Positions 5,210-34,018 of a stretch of 34,339 nucleotides of DNA are shown here, in pieces. How positions within the stretch are numbered: position 1 is the stretch's first letter; each line of letters begins with the position of its first letter. Origin of the DNA: Chloroflexota bacterium (GTDB lineage Bacteria; Chloroflexota; Dehalococcoidia; Lucifugimonadales; Australimonadaceae); the NCBI GenBank assembly GCA_028874795.1, contig JAPPHT010000013.1, forward strand, positions 1 through 34,339, given 5' to 3'. The notes below the pieces were generated by a model that saw only the letters and a list, made by a program, of their open reading frames with translations, had not been told where the DNA came from and made no database searches. The translations under genes were made by a program, and so were the position numbers.

Positions 5210-6082
5210 ATGAGTACCGCCACCCCCCCCAAGCGCCTGCCGGAGTGGCTGAAGGTCCCCTGGCCCGGCGGCGAGAACTACCTGCACCTCCGCCGGATGC
5301 TCCGAGACGCGGAGTTGCACACCGTCTGCGAGGAAGCCCACTGCCCGAACATCGGCGACTGTTGGGAACGCAGGTCCGCCACGTTCATGCTGCTCGGCGA
5401 GATCTGTACCCGAGCCTGCCGCTACTGCGCTGTCACGAGTGGCAAGCCCGCGCCTCCCGACCCCATGGAGCCCGCACGGCTCGCCCGCACCGTCGAGCGG
5501 CTCGGCCTGCGCTACTGTGTGCTCACCTCTGTCGACCGTGACGACCTTCCTGATGGCGGTGCGTGGGCCTTCGCAGAGAGCATCCGGCTCATCACCCGCC
5601 GTGTGCCGGACTGCGAGGTCGAGGTGCTGACTCCCGATTTCGGCGGCAACCTCGATGCCCTGCGCTGCGTCCTGGACGCAGGCCCCGCCGTGTTCAACCA
5701 CAATATCGAGACCGTGCGCCGCATCTTCAAGACCGTCCGCGCGAAGGGCGACTACGACCTCTCACTCGACCTCCTGGCCAGGGCGCGCGAGTTCGCGCCG
5801 AGAGTACCGGCAAAGAGCGGCATGATGGTCGGGCTCGGCGAGGCCACGGAAGAGGTGCTCGAAACCATGCGAGACCTCCGCGAGGCGGGCGTGCAACTGC
5901 TCACCATCGGTCAGTACCTGCGGCCGTCCCTCGGCCACATACCGATGGACCGGTTCTACCACCCACGCGAGTTCGCCGAACTCGAGCGCGTCGGCTACGA
6001 GATGGGCTTCTCGCACGTCGCCTCGGGCCCGCTCGTCCGTTCCTCTTACCACGCAGGCGAGCAACGCGCCGCCGCCCGGTAG
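5210..6082 (+). CDS. lipA: Lipoyl synthase
   Basis: This radical-SAM enzyme inserts two sulfurs into protein-bound octanoyl groups, giving lipoylated subunits of 2-oxoacid dehydrogenases and glycine cleavage H protein. The 290 residues fit the family. The auxiliary cluster cysteines are C40, C45 and C51 (C-x4-C-x5-C). The radical-SAM triad is C66, C70 and C73 (C-x3-C-x2-C). The conserved C-terminal R-S-S-Y is at 277-280. All diagnostic residues are present. There is no lipB nearby. The stop is 4 bases before the next gene, so lipA heads a short operon with catabolic enzymes. Confidence 0.97.
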   Translation: MSTATPPKRLPEWLKVPWPGGENYLHLRRMLRDAELHTVCEEAHCPNIGDCWERRSATFMLLGEICTRACRYCAVTSGKPAPPDPMEPARLARTVERLGLRYCVLTSVDRDDLPDGGAWAFAESIRLITRRVPDCEVEVLTPDFGGNLDALRCVLDAGPAVFNHNIETVRRIFKTVRAKGDYDLSLDLLARAREFAPRVPAKSGMMVGLGEATEEVLETMRDLREAGVQLLTIGQYLRPSLGHIPMDRFYHPREFAELERVGYEMGFSHVASGPLVRSSYHAGEQRAAAR

Positions 6083-6086
6083 GTCC

Positions 6087-7249
6087 GTGCGCATCCTCGA
6101 TATCCGCGAGATGACCGCCAGCATGCGCTCCGACATACGGAACGCGGTCATCGACTTCTCGCAGATGACGGCGTCCGTCGTCGCCGTCATCACTGACCTG
6201 GTCCGCGACGGCAGACCGGTCATCGGTTACGGCTTCAGCTCCAACGGACGCTACGCTGCGGGTGGCATCCTGCGCGATCGCTTCATCCCGCGCATCCTCG
6301 ACGCCGACCCCGCCTCCCTCATCGACGAAGGCGGCCTGCTCGATCCGCACCGCGTCTGGGATGTGATGATGACGGGAGAGAAGCCCGGCGGTCACGGCGA
6401 ACGGTCGGTCGCCGCGGGCGCGCTGGACATGGCGCTCTGGGACGCGGTCGCGAAAGCGGAAGGACAGCCCCTGTACCGCCTCATCGCGCGGCGCTACGGC
6501 GACGGCGCGCCTCTGGACGACGCCTGGGTCTACGCGGCTGGTGGCTACTACCAGCCCGGCAAGGGTGTCGAAGCGTTGCAGGACGAGATGCGCACTTACC
6601 TGGACATGGGCTACGACACCGTGAAGATGAAAATCGGCGGCGCATCGCTCGACGAGGACCTGCGCCGCATCGAGGCCGTGATCGCTGTCACCGGCAGCGG
6701 CGCGAGACTCGCCGTCGACGCCAACGGACGCTTCGACCTCGACGAGGCGATAGCCTACGGTGAGGCGATGGCCCCATACGGCCCGCGCTGGTACGAGGAA
6801 GCGGGCGACCCGCTCGACTACGCTTTGCAGGCCGAACTGGCCGCGCGCTACGAGCCCCCGCTTGCCACAGGCGAGAACCTCTTCTCCGTGCATGACGCGC
6901 GTAACCTCATACGTTACGGCGGCATGCGCCCCGACCGCGACGTGCTCCAGTTCGACCCCGCACTCAGCTACGGGCTCGTGGAGTACCTGCGCACCGTGGA
7001 GATGCTGGAGGCTTCTGGCTGGCCCCGCACCCGGTGCGTGCCGCACGGAGGTCACCTGTTCGCCCTCCACATCGCCGCGGGGCTCGGGCTTGGCGGCAAC
7101 GAATCGTATCCCGGTGTCTTTCAGCCGTTCGGGGGTTCGCGGACGGAGTGCAGCCGGAAGGCGGCCGGGTGCGGCTGCCCGAGATACCCGGCATCGGCTA
7201 CGAGATGAAATTGGACCTCTACTCGCTGCTCAGGGAACTCACGGAATAG
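6087..7249 (+). CDS. D(-)-tartrate dehydratase-like enolase-superfamily enzyme, frameshifted
   Basis: D(-)-tartrate dehydratase converts D-tartrate to oxaloacetate with Mg2+. Expected residues are all present: the K-x-K base motif K180-K182, metal ligands D211, E237 and E263, and H320 in PHGGH. From memory, these sit at a constant two-residue offset from the Bradyrhizobium enzyme (K184, D213, E239, E265, H322). The GTG start at 6087 is 4 bases after lipA. The initial frame ends at 7208 in an unrelated tail. A G-run at 7131-7135 marks where the conserved ending (GGFADGVQ...LPEIPGIGYE) moves to the -1 frame and runs to a stop at 7247-7249. Restoring one G gives 387 residues, close to the usual 389. 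This is either a real mutation or a homopolymer error. The catalytic residues precede the break. Confidence 0.85.
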
Positions 7250-7257
7250 GAGAGACC

Positions 7258-8229
7258 ATGCGCATCGCTGTGCTGGATGACTACCAGGGGATCGCCCACG
7301 AACTCGCAGACTGGGACTCGATAGCAGGAGCGGAGGTGACGTTCTTCCGGGAGGCGATCACGCCTGAGGAGATGCCAGACCGCCTCGCCCCGTTCGACGT
7401 GGTCCAGATGATGCGTGAGCGCACGCCGATACCCACGGACGTGCTGCGTCAACTCCCGAACCTCAAGCTGCTCTCTGGCACGGGGCGGCGCCAGCCCCAC
7501 GTGAACGGGGAAGAGGCCGGAAGGCTCGGCATCCCTGTCACAGGAACGGACGGCGCGGGCGACTCTACGCCGGAGCTCGTATGGGGCCTCATCATCGGGG
7601 TTACGAGGCACATCGGCTGGGAGGACCAGCGCATGCGCGAGGGGAAGTGGCAGACGAGGCTGGGTGCAGGGCTCGCCGGCCGCACGCTCGGCGTACTGGG
7701 CATGGGACGGATCGGCACGAAGATCGCGGTCAGCGCGCAGCAAACGTTCGGGATGAACGTCATCGCGTGGGGCCCAACGCTCACACCGGAACGGGCCGCG
7801 GCGAGCGGCGCAAACTACGTCTCCTGGGACGAGCTGTTCTCGCAGGCCGACATCCTCACGATTCACGTGCCTCTGACCGACCTGAGCCGGGGATGGGTTA
7901 CGGAACGCGAGTTCAGTCTCATGCAGCCCTCCGCGTTCCTGGTCAACACGTCGCGCGGCCCCATCGTTCGGGAGGAGGCGCTGATTCAGGCCCTTCGCCA
8001 GCGCCGTATCGCGGGTGCCGCGCTGGACGTCTACGACGTGGAGCCGCTGCCGGCGGGCCACGCGTTGCTTGAGCTCGACAACGTACTGCTCACGCCGCAC
8101 CTGGGCTACGCAACGCTGGACAGCCTCGCGGCCTTCTACCAGTACTCGGTGGACAACATCAAGGCGTGGGCTGCAGGCGAACCGGTCAACGTCTTGAACG
8201 CCGACTTTCTCACGGAGCCTCGCCGCTAG
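7258..8229 (+). CDS. D-isomer-specific 2-hydroxyacid dehydrogenase
   Basis: This is an NAD(P)-dependent oxidoreductase interconverting a D-2-hydroxyacid and a 2-oxoacid; the substrate cannot be read from sequence. The 323 residues show the Rossmann motif GMGRIG at 148-153 and the family catalytic triad R233 (SRGP), E262 (DVEP) and H281 (TPHLGYAT). I chose the ATG at 7258 because AGGAGA (7248-7253) lies just upstream and the conserved N-terminal strand RIAVLDDYQ follows; the frame is open further left but that sequence overlaps the previous gene. It begins 8 bases after the restored stop of the tartrate-dehydratase-like gene, implying one operon and perhaps linked hydroxyacid metabolism. Its last 4 bases overlap the convergent prenyl synthase gene. 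Confidence 0.92.
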   Translation: MRIAVLDDYQGIAHELADWDSIAGAEVTFFREAITPEEMPDRLAPFDVVQMMRERTPIPTDVLRQLPNLKLLSGTGRRQPHVNGEEAGRLGIPVTGTDGAGDSTPELVWGLIIGVTRHIGWEDQRMREGKWQTRLGAGLAGRTLGVLGMGRIGTKIAVSAQQTFGMNVIAWGPTLTPERAAASGANYVSWDELFSQADILTIHVPLTDLSRGWVTEREFSLMQPSAFLVNTSRGPIVREEALIQALRQRRIAGAALDVYDVEPLPAGHALLELDNVLLTPHLGYATLDSLAAFYQYSVDNIKAWAAGEPVNVLNADFLTEPRR

Positions 8230-16999: not shown

Positions 17000-18304
17000 T
17001 TACCTCGTGAACTTGTCGTACACGGCTTCCTGCACTTCCCTCAACTGCCCGATGTTGCGGAGGAAAGAATCCTCGACCTGAGCGAAGATCTCCTGCAGCT
17101 CCGCCCCGCCCTGCTGTATCTCGATGGGCTGCGCGAGAACCCGCTCAAAGTCGGCGCGGAAGTCGGGTACTGCCAGCGCGTCGTCCCACGCCTTCCGGAG
17201 CGTGTTGACGATGTCGATAGGGGTGTCCGGCGGAGCCAGCAAGTTCTTGCCTACGAACGTCTCAGGGGCCATCAGTCCATCCCAGATGTCGCGCTGTTCG
17301 TCAGTGATGAGGTCGCGCGCGTAGGAGGCAGTGAACTCTTCGACTTCGGCGTTGCCCTCGATGAACCCACCGGGGCCTGCGAGACCTGCGAAGGGCTTGA
17401 TGAAGCCGCTGGAAACCCATCCTGGTCTCCGCTGAGGCAACTGGTACCAAACGCTGCCTGCTGTGAAGTTGTTGGTGTCGCCGCGCTCAATCATGAGCAA
17501 CTCTTGCTCGGTCCCGGTGGATGCTACCAGCTTGTATTCATACGGCAGGTTGAGCCAGTCAGCCAGCAGGAAGTTGCCCAGGTCGCCAACACCCACGAGC
17601 TCCTGCGGAGTGGGAGCGGAACCTGCTGCGATCAGGGTCGGACCGGAGGCTCCCATGGCTTCCGTTATGTCGTTGTAGGGCAACTCGTGTCCGTTGATCA
17701 TCCACACTGCGTTGCGGGCCACAGGCGCGCCGATTACCTCGAACCCCGATGCCTTGTATACGGCTTCAGGTTCTGTGGACGACTGGATCGGCGCCGTCGC
17801 GTTGTAGATGAGGATGAGCCCGTTCGGCTCGGACTCCCAGACAAAGTTGTTCGCAGCCAGTGAAGGCGTCAGGTTGCTGACGACGATGCGGGGATTGCCC
17901 GGTATGTACTGGCCCCACTTAGCCGCGAGGAAGCGTGCCTGCGTGTCAGTGCCGCCACCCGGATTGAAACCGACCACCAGGCGGATGGTCTTGCCTTTGA
18001 AGTGCGCCTCCGCGTCGAAAGACGGGAGAGGCGTCGCCGTGGGAGGTGGGGGTGGCGAAGTGGGCGTGGCGGTCGGCGCAGGGGCGGGAGCGCCGGGCAC
18101 CGGAGTAGCGGTTGGCTCACTTGGCGCGCTTGGTGCGGTTGTCGGCGCCGGCTCAGGTGCCGACGTCTCGGGGACGGGAGTAGCGGTTGGACGGGGTGTC
18201 GCGGTCGGCTCATCTGCTCCCCCGCAAGCAGTCATCACCAGCCCCGCAATGAGGGCCAGCGCCATCAGCAACAAGCATGAGCGGTACGCCTTCTTGATGA
18301 TCAT
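17000..18304 (-). CDS. TTT-family substrate-binding lipoprotein (TctC/Bug)
   Basis: This is the extracytoplasmic receptor of the tripartite carboxylate transporter. The start at 18304 gives MIIKKAYRS, a hydrophobic helix and a lipobox ending at C27; GGAGGGAGA lies upstream. The same frame is open much further left, but that part runs antisense to two clear genes. Residues 34-96 form a Pro/Thr/Ala linker with repeated TATP units. The mature domain begins with KGKTIRLVVGFNPGGGTDTQAR, split here only for family recognition: the I-R-L-V-V-x-F-x-P-G-G-x-T-D pattern is the Bug signature. At 434 residues it exceeds the usual 320-330 because of the linker. The ligand is unknown; a di- or tricarboxylate is likely. 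Confidence 0.93.
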   Translation of the reverse strand: MIIKKAYRSCLLLMALALIAGLVMTACGGADEPTATPRPTATPVPETSAPEPAPTTAPSAPSEPTATPVPGAPAPAPTATPTSPPPPPTATPLPSFDAEAHFKGKTIRLVVGFNPGGGTDTQARFLAAKWGQYIPGNPRIVVSNLTPSLAANNFVWESEPNGLILIYNATAPIQSSTEPEAVYKASGFEVIGAPVARNAVWMINGHELPYNDITEAMGASGPTLIAAGSAPTPQELVGVGDLGNFLLADWLNLPYEYKLVASTGTEQELLMIERGDTNNFTAGSVWYQLPQRRPGWVSSGFIKPFAGLAGPGGFIEGNAEVEEFTASYARDLITDEQRDIWDGLMAPETFVGKNLLAPPDTPIDIVNTLRKAWDDALAVPDFRADFERVLAQPIEIQQGGAELQEIFAQVEDSFLRNIGQLREVQEAVYDKFTR

Positions 18305-33055: not shown

Positions 33056-34018
33056 CTAAAGGCCCCCCAGCATCAGTTCCTCCGGGTAGGGTTGGAGATA
33101 CGTCTGGGCGGCGAGCCACTCCGGGCCGCCGGACCTGCGGACGTGGTGGCGCAGCAGCGTAAGCGGAGCGGTGAACGAGGCCTTGCCGACACGGTAGCGT
33201 TCGATCGCACCGGCGAGCTCCTCGCGGTCGCCCTTGTCGAGCAGTCCTTTCAGGAACCCGGCAGCGTGTTGCAGCGCGTTCGCGTGCTTACGCGGGGTGG
33301 TCAAGCGCGCCATAGCACGCATCAGCACACGCCCGTACTCGTCAGTGATCGCACGCCAATCGGCGCTGCCCGCTCGCGCGACGACACGCCCCGCCTCCCG
33401 GTAGAGCGTGGGCGCATGCGCCATGAGCGTGAGCTTGTGGGCCGTGTGGAAGGCCACGAGCGCAGAGGGCGCGCGGGGCCCGTCCATCAGCGCCGTCCAC
33501 CGCTGGTAGACGAACACGCGCTCGATGAAATTGTCCCGCAGGCGGGGGTCGTTCAGGCGTCCGTTCTCCTCGACGGGAAGCAAGGGGAAGCGCCTCGTCA
33601 GCTCATCGGCGAAGAGGCCGCGTCCGGTGCGGGCGGCGGGTCCCCCCCCCAGGGGATAGACCTTCACCCGGAAGAGGCCGCAGCTCGGCGAGTCCTTCGT
33701 GAGCACATAGCCGTGCAACCCCGGGCTCGCGAACTCCTCGACGCGCCTCGCCGCCCAGAAGCGCATCGCTTCCGAGTGATCCGTTTCGGAGCGCACTCCC
33801 CGCATGTGGAGCGCCCCGCCCTCGTCGACGAGGCGTACCGGCTCGCGGGGCGTCCCCATCCCCACTTCCGACTCGGGGCAGACGGCCGTCCACTCGACGT
33901 GGGGGCCGAGCGTCCGCGTCAGGAACGCGTTACGAAGGTGCCCGCCGTCGTAGCGCAGCGGCTCGCCGAGGAGGCATGCGCTGACGCCGATACGCGGTTT
34001 GGGGAAGGAAGAGCTCAC
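33056..34018 (-). CDS. DUF523-DUF1722 fusion protein (YbgA-like)
   Basis: The N-terminal DUF523 (about 5-150) has the conserved KPRIGVSACLLG, RYDGGH, CPE and KDSPSCG cysteine motifs, suggesting a metal or thiol site. The C-terminal DUF1722 (about 180-310) contains the W-x-x-L-x-x-G helix start, F-H-x-x-H-K and the T-P-R-K-H-x-N-x-L-x-H segment. The fusion is widespread; its function is not established, although association with photolyase and oxidative-stress genes has been noted in other bacteria. I place the start at a GTG (34018) with GGAG upstream; a GTG at 34048 is also in frame. It is translated together with the following SDR. Confidence 0.88.
   Translation of the reverse strand: MSSSFPKPRIGVSACLLGEPLRYDGGHLRNAFLTRTLGPHVEWTAVCPESEVGMGTPREPVRLVDEGGALHMRGVRSETDHSEAMRFWAARRVEEFASPGLHGYVLTKDSPSCGLFRVKVYPLGGGPAARTGRGLFADELTRRFPLLPVEENGRLNDPRLRDNFIERVFVYQRWTALMDGPRAPSALVAFHTAHKLTLMAHAPTLYREAGRVVARAGSADWRAITDEYGRVLMRAMARLTTPRKHANALQHAAGFLKGLLDKGDREELAGAIERYRVGKASFTAPLTLLRHHVRRSGGPEWLAAQTYLQPYPEELMLGGL

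Follow-up and report, generated by a model that had tools for sequence, protein, structure and literature searches.

A single-base frame break near the end of a TarD-like dehydratase gene in a Chloroflexota draft genome

The closest described counterpart of the gene considered here is D-tartrate dehydratase TarD, an enzyme of the mandelate racemase subgroup of the enolase superfamily known from Bradyrhizobium japonicum (Bll6730; PDB 2dw7/2dw6/1tzz) and, through a homologue, from Azospirillum (4kem), with which it shares homology over its whole length. In the open papers on TarD covered by a literature search, structural detail on the C-terminal segment was not found, and it is this segment that is affected at the present locus.

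The window, i.e., the whole stretch of DNA that was analysed, is an entire contig of 34,339 bases from a draft genome of 3.33 Mb in 90 contigs (97% complete). We infer that this is a metagenome-assembled genome (MAG) of an uncultured sponge-type SAR202 bacterium, since its congeners are MAGs: SAR202 cluster bacterium bin16 (MPMJ01), Chloroflexi SB0664_bin_11 and Dehalococcoidia p16x34bins.71. MPMJ01 has been described as belonging to SAR202 group VII and living as a symbiont of sponges (PMC6946804). In the window copy of the TarD-like gene, one base has been lost near the end, and the last 37 amino acids lie out of frame.

One gene in two reading frames

The TarD-like gene matches 4kem (E 2e-168) and 2dw7 (E 8e-150) over their full length, although the window copy needs two frames for this, and the fold match comes from the intact protein of a congener, whose model fits 4kem at TM 0.96. 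The catalytic residues and metal ligands of TarD are retained, comprising the KxK lysine (K180/K182), the catalytic His (H320) and the Asp/Glu/Glu metal-binding acids (D211, E237 and E263), and all of the catalytic residues precede the frame break. Translation and residue matches thereby bear out the initial annotation, which had described a clean frame with every catalytic residue up to GGGGG at 7131-7135.

From this point on, a single open frame that includes the C-terminal segment is lacking. The running frame, which starts at GTG 6087 and stops at TGA 7206-7208 after 373 codons, ends in the unrelated tail SRTECSRKAAGCGCPRYPASATR, whereas the −1 frame, read from 7136 onwards, encodes FADGVQPEGGRVRLPEIPGIGYEMKLDLYSLLRELTE (7136-7246), followed by TAG at 7247-7249 (Table 1). 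Taken alone, this 37-residue tail matches residues 353-389 of 2dw7 (E 2.9e-6) and residues 352-383 of 4kem (E 3.8e-7), and it shares 70-81% identity with the corresponding segments of four orthologues in the genus. Judged by these alignments, the match to the family is not a chance one, and the earlier proposal that the family ending continues only in the −1 frame holds. So does its placement of the original stop, which lies 8 bases ahead of the ATG at 7258 that opens the downstream dehydrogenase-like gene.

Table 1. Features of the TarD-like locus and its neighbours in the window
Feature	Position	Strand	Basis
Lipoyl synthase gene lipA, upstream, intact	5210..6082	+	TIGR00510, 382.9 bits vs cutoff 310
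TarD-like enolase-superfamily gene, in-frame part, codons 1-348	6087..7130	+	Full-length match to 4kem/2dw7; congeneric orthologues
GGGGG at the shift point; six bases (GGN GGN) in orthologues	7131..7135	+	Sequence; orthologue comparison
End of the running frame, non-homologous, stop TGA 7206-7208	7136..7208	+	Translation; low model confidence
Conserved C-terminal 37 codons, −1 frame, original stop TAG 7247-7249	7136..7249	+	Tail matches; orthologues
D-2-hydroxyacid dehydrogenase-like gene, downstream	7258..8229	+	PF02826, E 6.6e-59; start context

The locus in related genomes

Comparison with the same locus in relatives, as the initial annotation had advised, identified an intact copy in every congener that carries the gene. 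The TarD-like gene is present in four of the five other genomes of the genus, with 88-90% amino acid identity in the body, and all four copies form one open frame of 387 codons with a homologous stop; the surrounding gene order is the same in these congeners over the stretch available. More widely, the genomes of 84,980 species were searched with a query that ended ahead of the shift site, so that intact tails were not favoured. The best 80 homologues, three of which are congeners, all cross the shift site in one frame and carry tails of 37-42 residues. The finding named beforehand as fatal to the frameshift claim, a shifted tail that is not conserved in the family, was thus not encountered, the tail being conserved in 80/80 homologues. 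Because the congeners (4/4) are intact and the homologues (80/80) are in frame, the loss is limited to the window copy and the intact reading is the ancestral state; a lineage-unique indel set against intact orthologues is the pattern expected of a pseudogene. No second close copy was found in the same genome, where the next best match is 29% identical, and the shift site had no match in viral contigs; homologues at 72-74% identity in plasmid records were among the matches listed and have no bearing on the origin of the shift.

The two glycine codons at the break read GGC-GGA, GGC-GGG, GGG-GGG and GGA-GGG in the four congeners, with TTC next, and the window is one base shorter. Since the codons of relatives vary in this way, the lost base need not be a G; whichever base occupied a wobble position could be the one that went. 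Loss of the wobble base from one Gly codon beside a GGG codon leaves GGGGG, meaning that the G run may be the product of the deletion rather than its cause. An unbroken run of six Gs occurs in a single species within the genus, and slippage within a G run that already existed is only one among several possible routes. Of the earlier statement that one missing G explains the locus, the one-base loss and the intact ancestor stand, whereas the naming of the base as G does not. The proposed course of events is a recent loss, in this lineage alone, of one base from the pair of glycine codons (349-350), which threw the last 37 codons out of frame and left a fresh pseudogene within an otherwise conserved gene order.

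Recoding, phase variation and assembly error

A break of this kind could also be bridged during translation. If ribosomes made a programmed −1 frameshift on GGG-GGT, the full protein would be restored, and a step at GGT does yield the family-like junction FGG-FADG. Yet the shift is found in no relative (80/80 homologues use a single frame, and their codons vary), a conserved slippery heptamer was sought in relatives and is absent, and the 70 bases downstream fold no better than shuffled sequences (z 0.18). Folding of two stretches downstream of the shift against shuffles revealed no stimulatory RNA structure (z 0.18 and −0.60). Recoding, which the initial annotation had offered as its less likely option, is rejected on these grounds, and we give programmed frameshifting next to no chance of being the explanation.

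Phase-variable tracts on record are usually longer than five bases. Phase variation, whereby the length of the G run would differ between cells and toggle the C-terminus, draws on the fact that the site is a G run in the window and in one congener (GGGGGG), but this run has only five Gs, the window contains 45 runs of five G or C bases in all, and the site is interrupted in three of the four congeners and in almost all homologues. Across relatives, the site is thus neither a long or conserved tract nor one of variable length. Longer runs in the window, a C8 at 5223-5230 in lipA and a C9 at 33642-33650 in a 2-thiouracil desulfurase/DUF1722 gene, keep their frames, and their equivalents in the sister genomes are interrupted runs. 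That such longer runs remain in frame speaks against phase variation as well as against a run-length fault of the assembly, and the former, another suggestion of the initial annotation, now seems very improbable. It would be hardly more credible that the sponge symbiont still makes the full-length enzyme by some means, be it low-level −1 slippage on GGG-GGT or cell-to-cell variation of the G run; if it is made, a peptide across the join, e.g., one holding FGGFADGVQPEGGR, would mark it.

An assembly or consensus error deserves more weight. Here, the gene in the cells would be intact and the contig would have dropped one base, possibly through the merging of strains that differ in their wobble bases. 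With its 90 contigs, the genome is a draft and presumably a MAG, in which a one-base deletion can be a consensus error; moreover, the tail is still recognisable, and the body is under ordinary purifying selection, as a working gene would be. Against this stand the in-frame longer homopolymers and the small number of uncompensated shifts elsewhere. In the coding DNA of the window, the TarD-like shift is the sole uncompensated one: every other out-of-frame gap is either offset by a second one a few bases away or located at the start of a gene or in intergenic DNA, such as a 4-base difference near 18301 that falls at a start codon. About 221 kb of coding DNA of the source genome, drawn from the window and from portions of contigs 4, 5, 31, 61 and 84, were compared with congeners, mainly G005, and flagged sites were re-examined at the protein level. 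The TarD-like shift is conspicuous, the protein being conserved to either side of it; two further shifts of this kind are probable, two sites are unclear, and the remainder lie upstream of likely starts. The two probable shifts, on contig 84 of the source genome at about 209966 and 20689, have conserved protein in two frames relative to G005.

A generally noisy assembly can be rejected as the cause, given that compensation or a position outside genes accounts for nearly all other out-of-frame gaps in the window, and the assembly does not appear to be losing bases in runs as a rule. A local error at this one site is a real but distinctly less probable explanation, and it ranks second. The reading we consider most likely is a recent deletion, and we hold it fairly probable that this inactivating one-base loss in the TarD-like gene is real in the cells.

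Age, effect and comparison with known systems

For the body of the gene, comparison of the window copy with the sister copies gives dN/dS of 0.093-0.099, and sister pairs give 0.08-0.10, a similarity that points to a recent break. Where homologues outside the genus have invariant columns, 16 departures occur in the window and 12-15 in the sisters; with dN/dS also ordinary, strong relaxation of selection in the body was rejected. Sites invariant in the four sisters are changed in the window at 4/29 positions in the tail and 12/301 in the body (Fisher p 0.04), a small and borderline signal that gives a weak hint of relaxed selection on the tail. Together, these data would suit a break that is recent, with selection relaxed only slightly if at all, and they would suit an error too. 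Separately, two changes found only in the window, Leu to Pro at residue 233 and Ser to Pro at residue 313 (about 6783 and 7023), affect positions that are invariant in 81 intact homologues.

With respect to the protein, AlphaFold2 models the intact congener with block-mean confidence of 84-93 over residues 341-387 and the window product with about 45-60 over 341-373, the latter also being somewhat lower at 11-30 and 51-60. The lost C-terminal segment is conserved in every homologue examined, and its residues P365, G369, G371, E373, K375 and L378 are invariant across the intact set. The 373-residue product with its unrelated 23-residue tail is thus probably misfolded or inactive. One might argue that a protein whose catalytic residues all lie ahead of the break could be a working enzyme variant, but conservation of the tail in all homologues, the low confidence of the new tail and the slightly lower values in the N-terminal loops at 11-30 and 51-60 make this scarcely believable. 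On balance, we infer two things: the deletion is present in the cells rather than made by the assembly, and the enzyme lacks activity.

Confined to one base of one metabolic gene in a single draft genome, the break has little significance alone. It does imply that a sugar-acid dehydratase retained by its sisters may have been lost, or may be on the way to being lost, in one species of the genus, and that automatic annotation of the source genome would yield a dehydratase with the wrong C-terminus.

Compared with TarD, the window copy differs in being frameshifted ahead of its last 37 codons, and the genus as a whole differs by Q269H and Q324L, the latter adjoining the HGGH motif. Both substitutions fall at positions invariant in the 77 homologues outside the genus, which suggests that the substrate has changed in this group of SAR202 bacteria and may be something other than D-tartrate. 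Compared with ordinary single-base-indel pseudogenes, the locus shares the one uncompensated indel, the intact sister orthologues and the preserved gene order. The type of event is ordinary, and nothing notable sets this case apart, the body of the window gene being undecayed so far.
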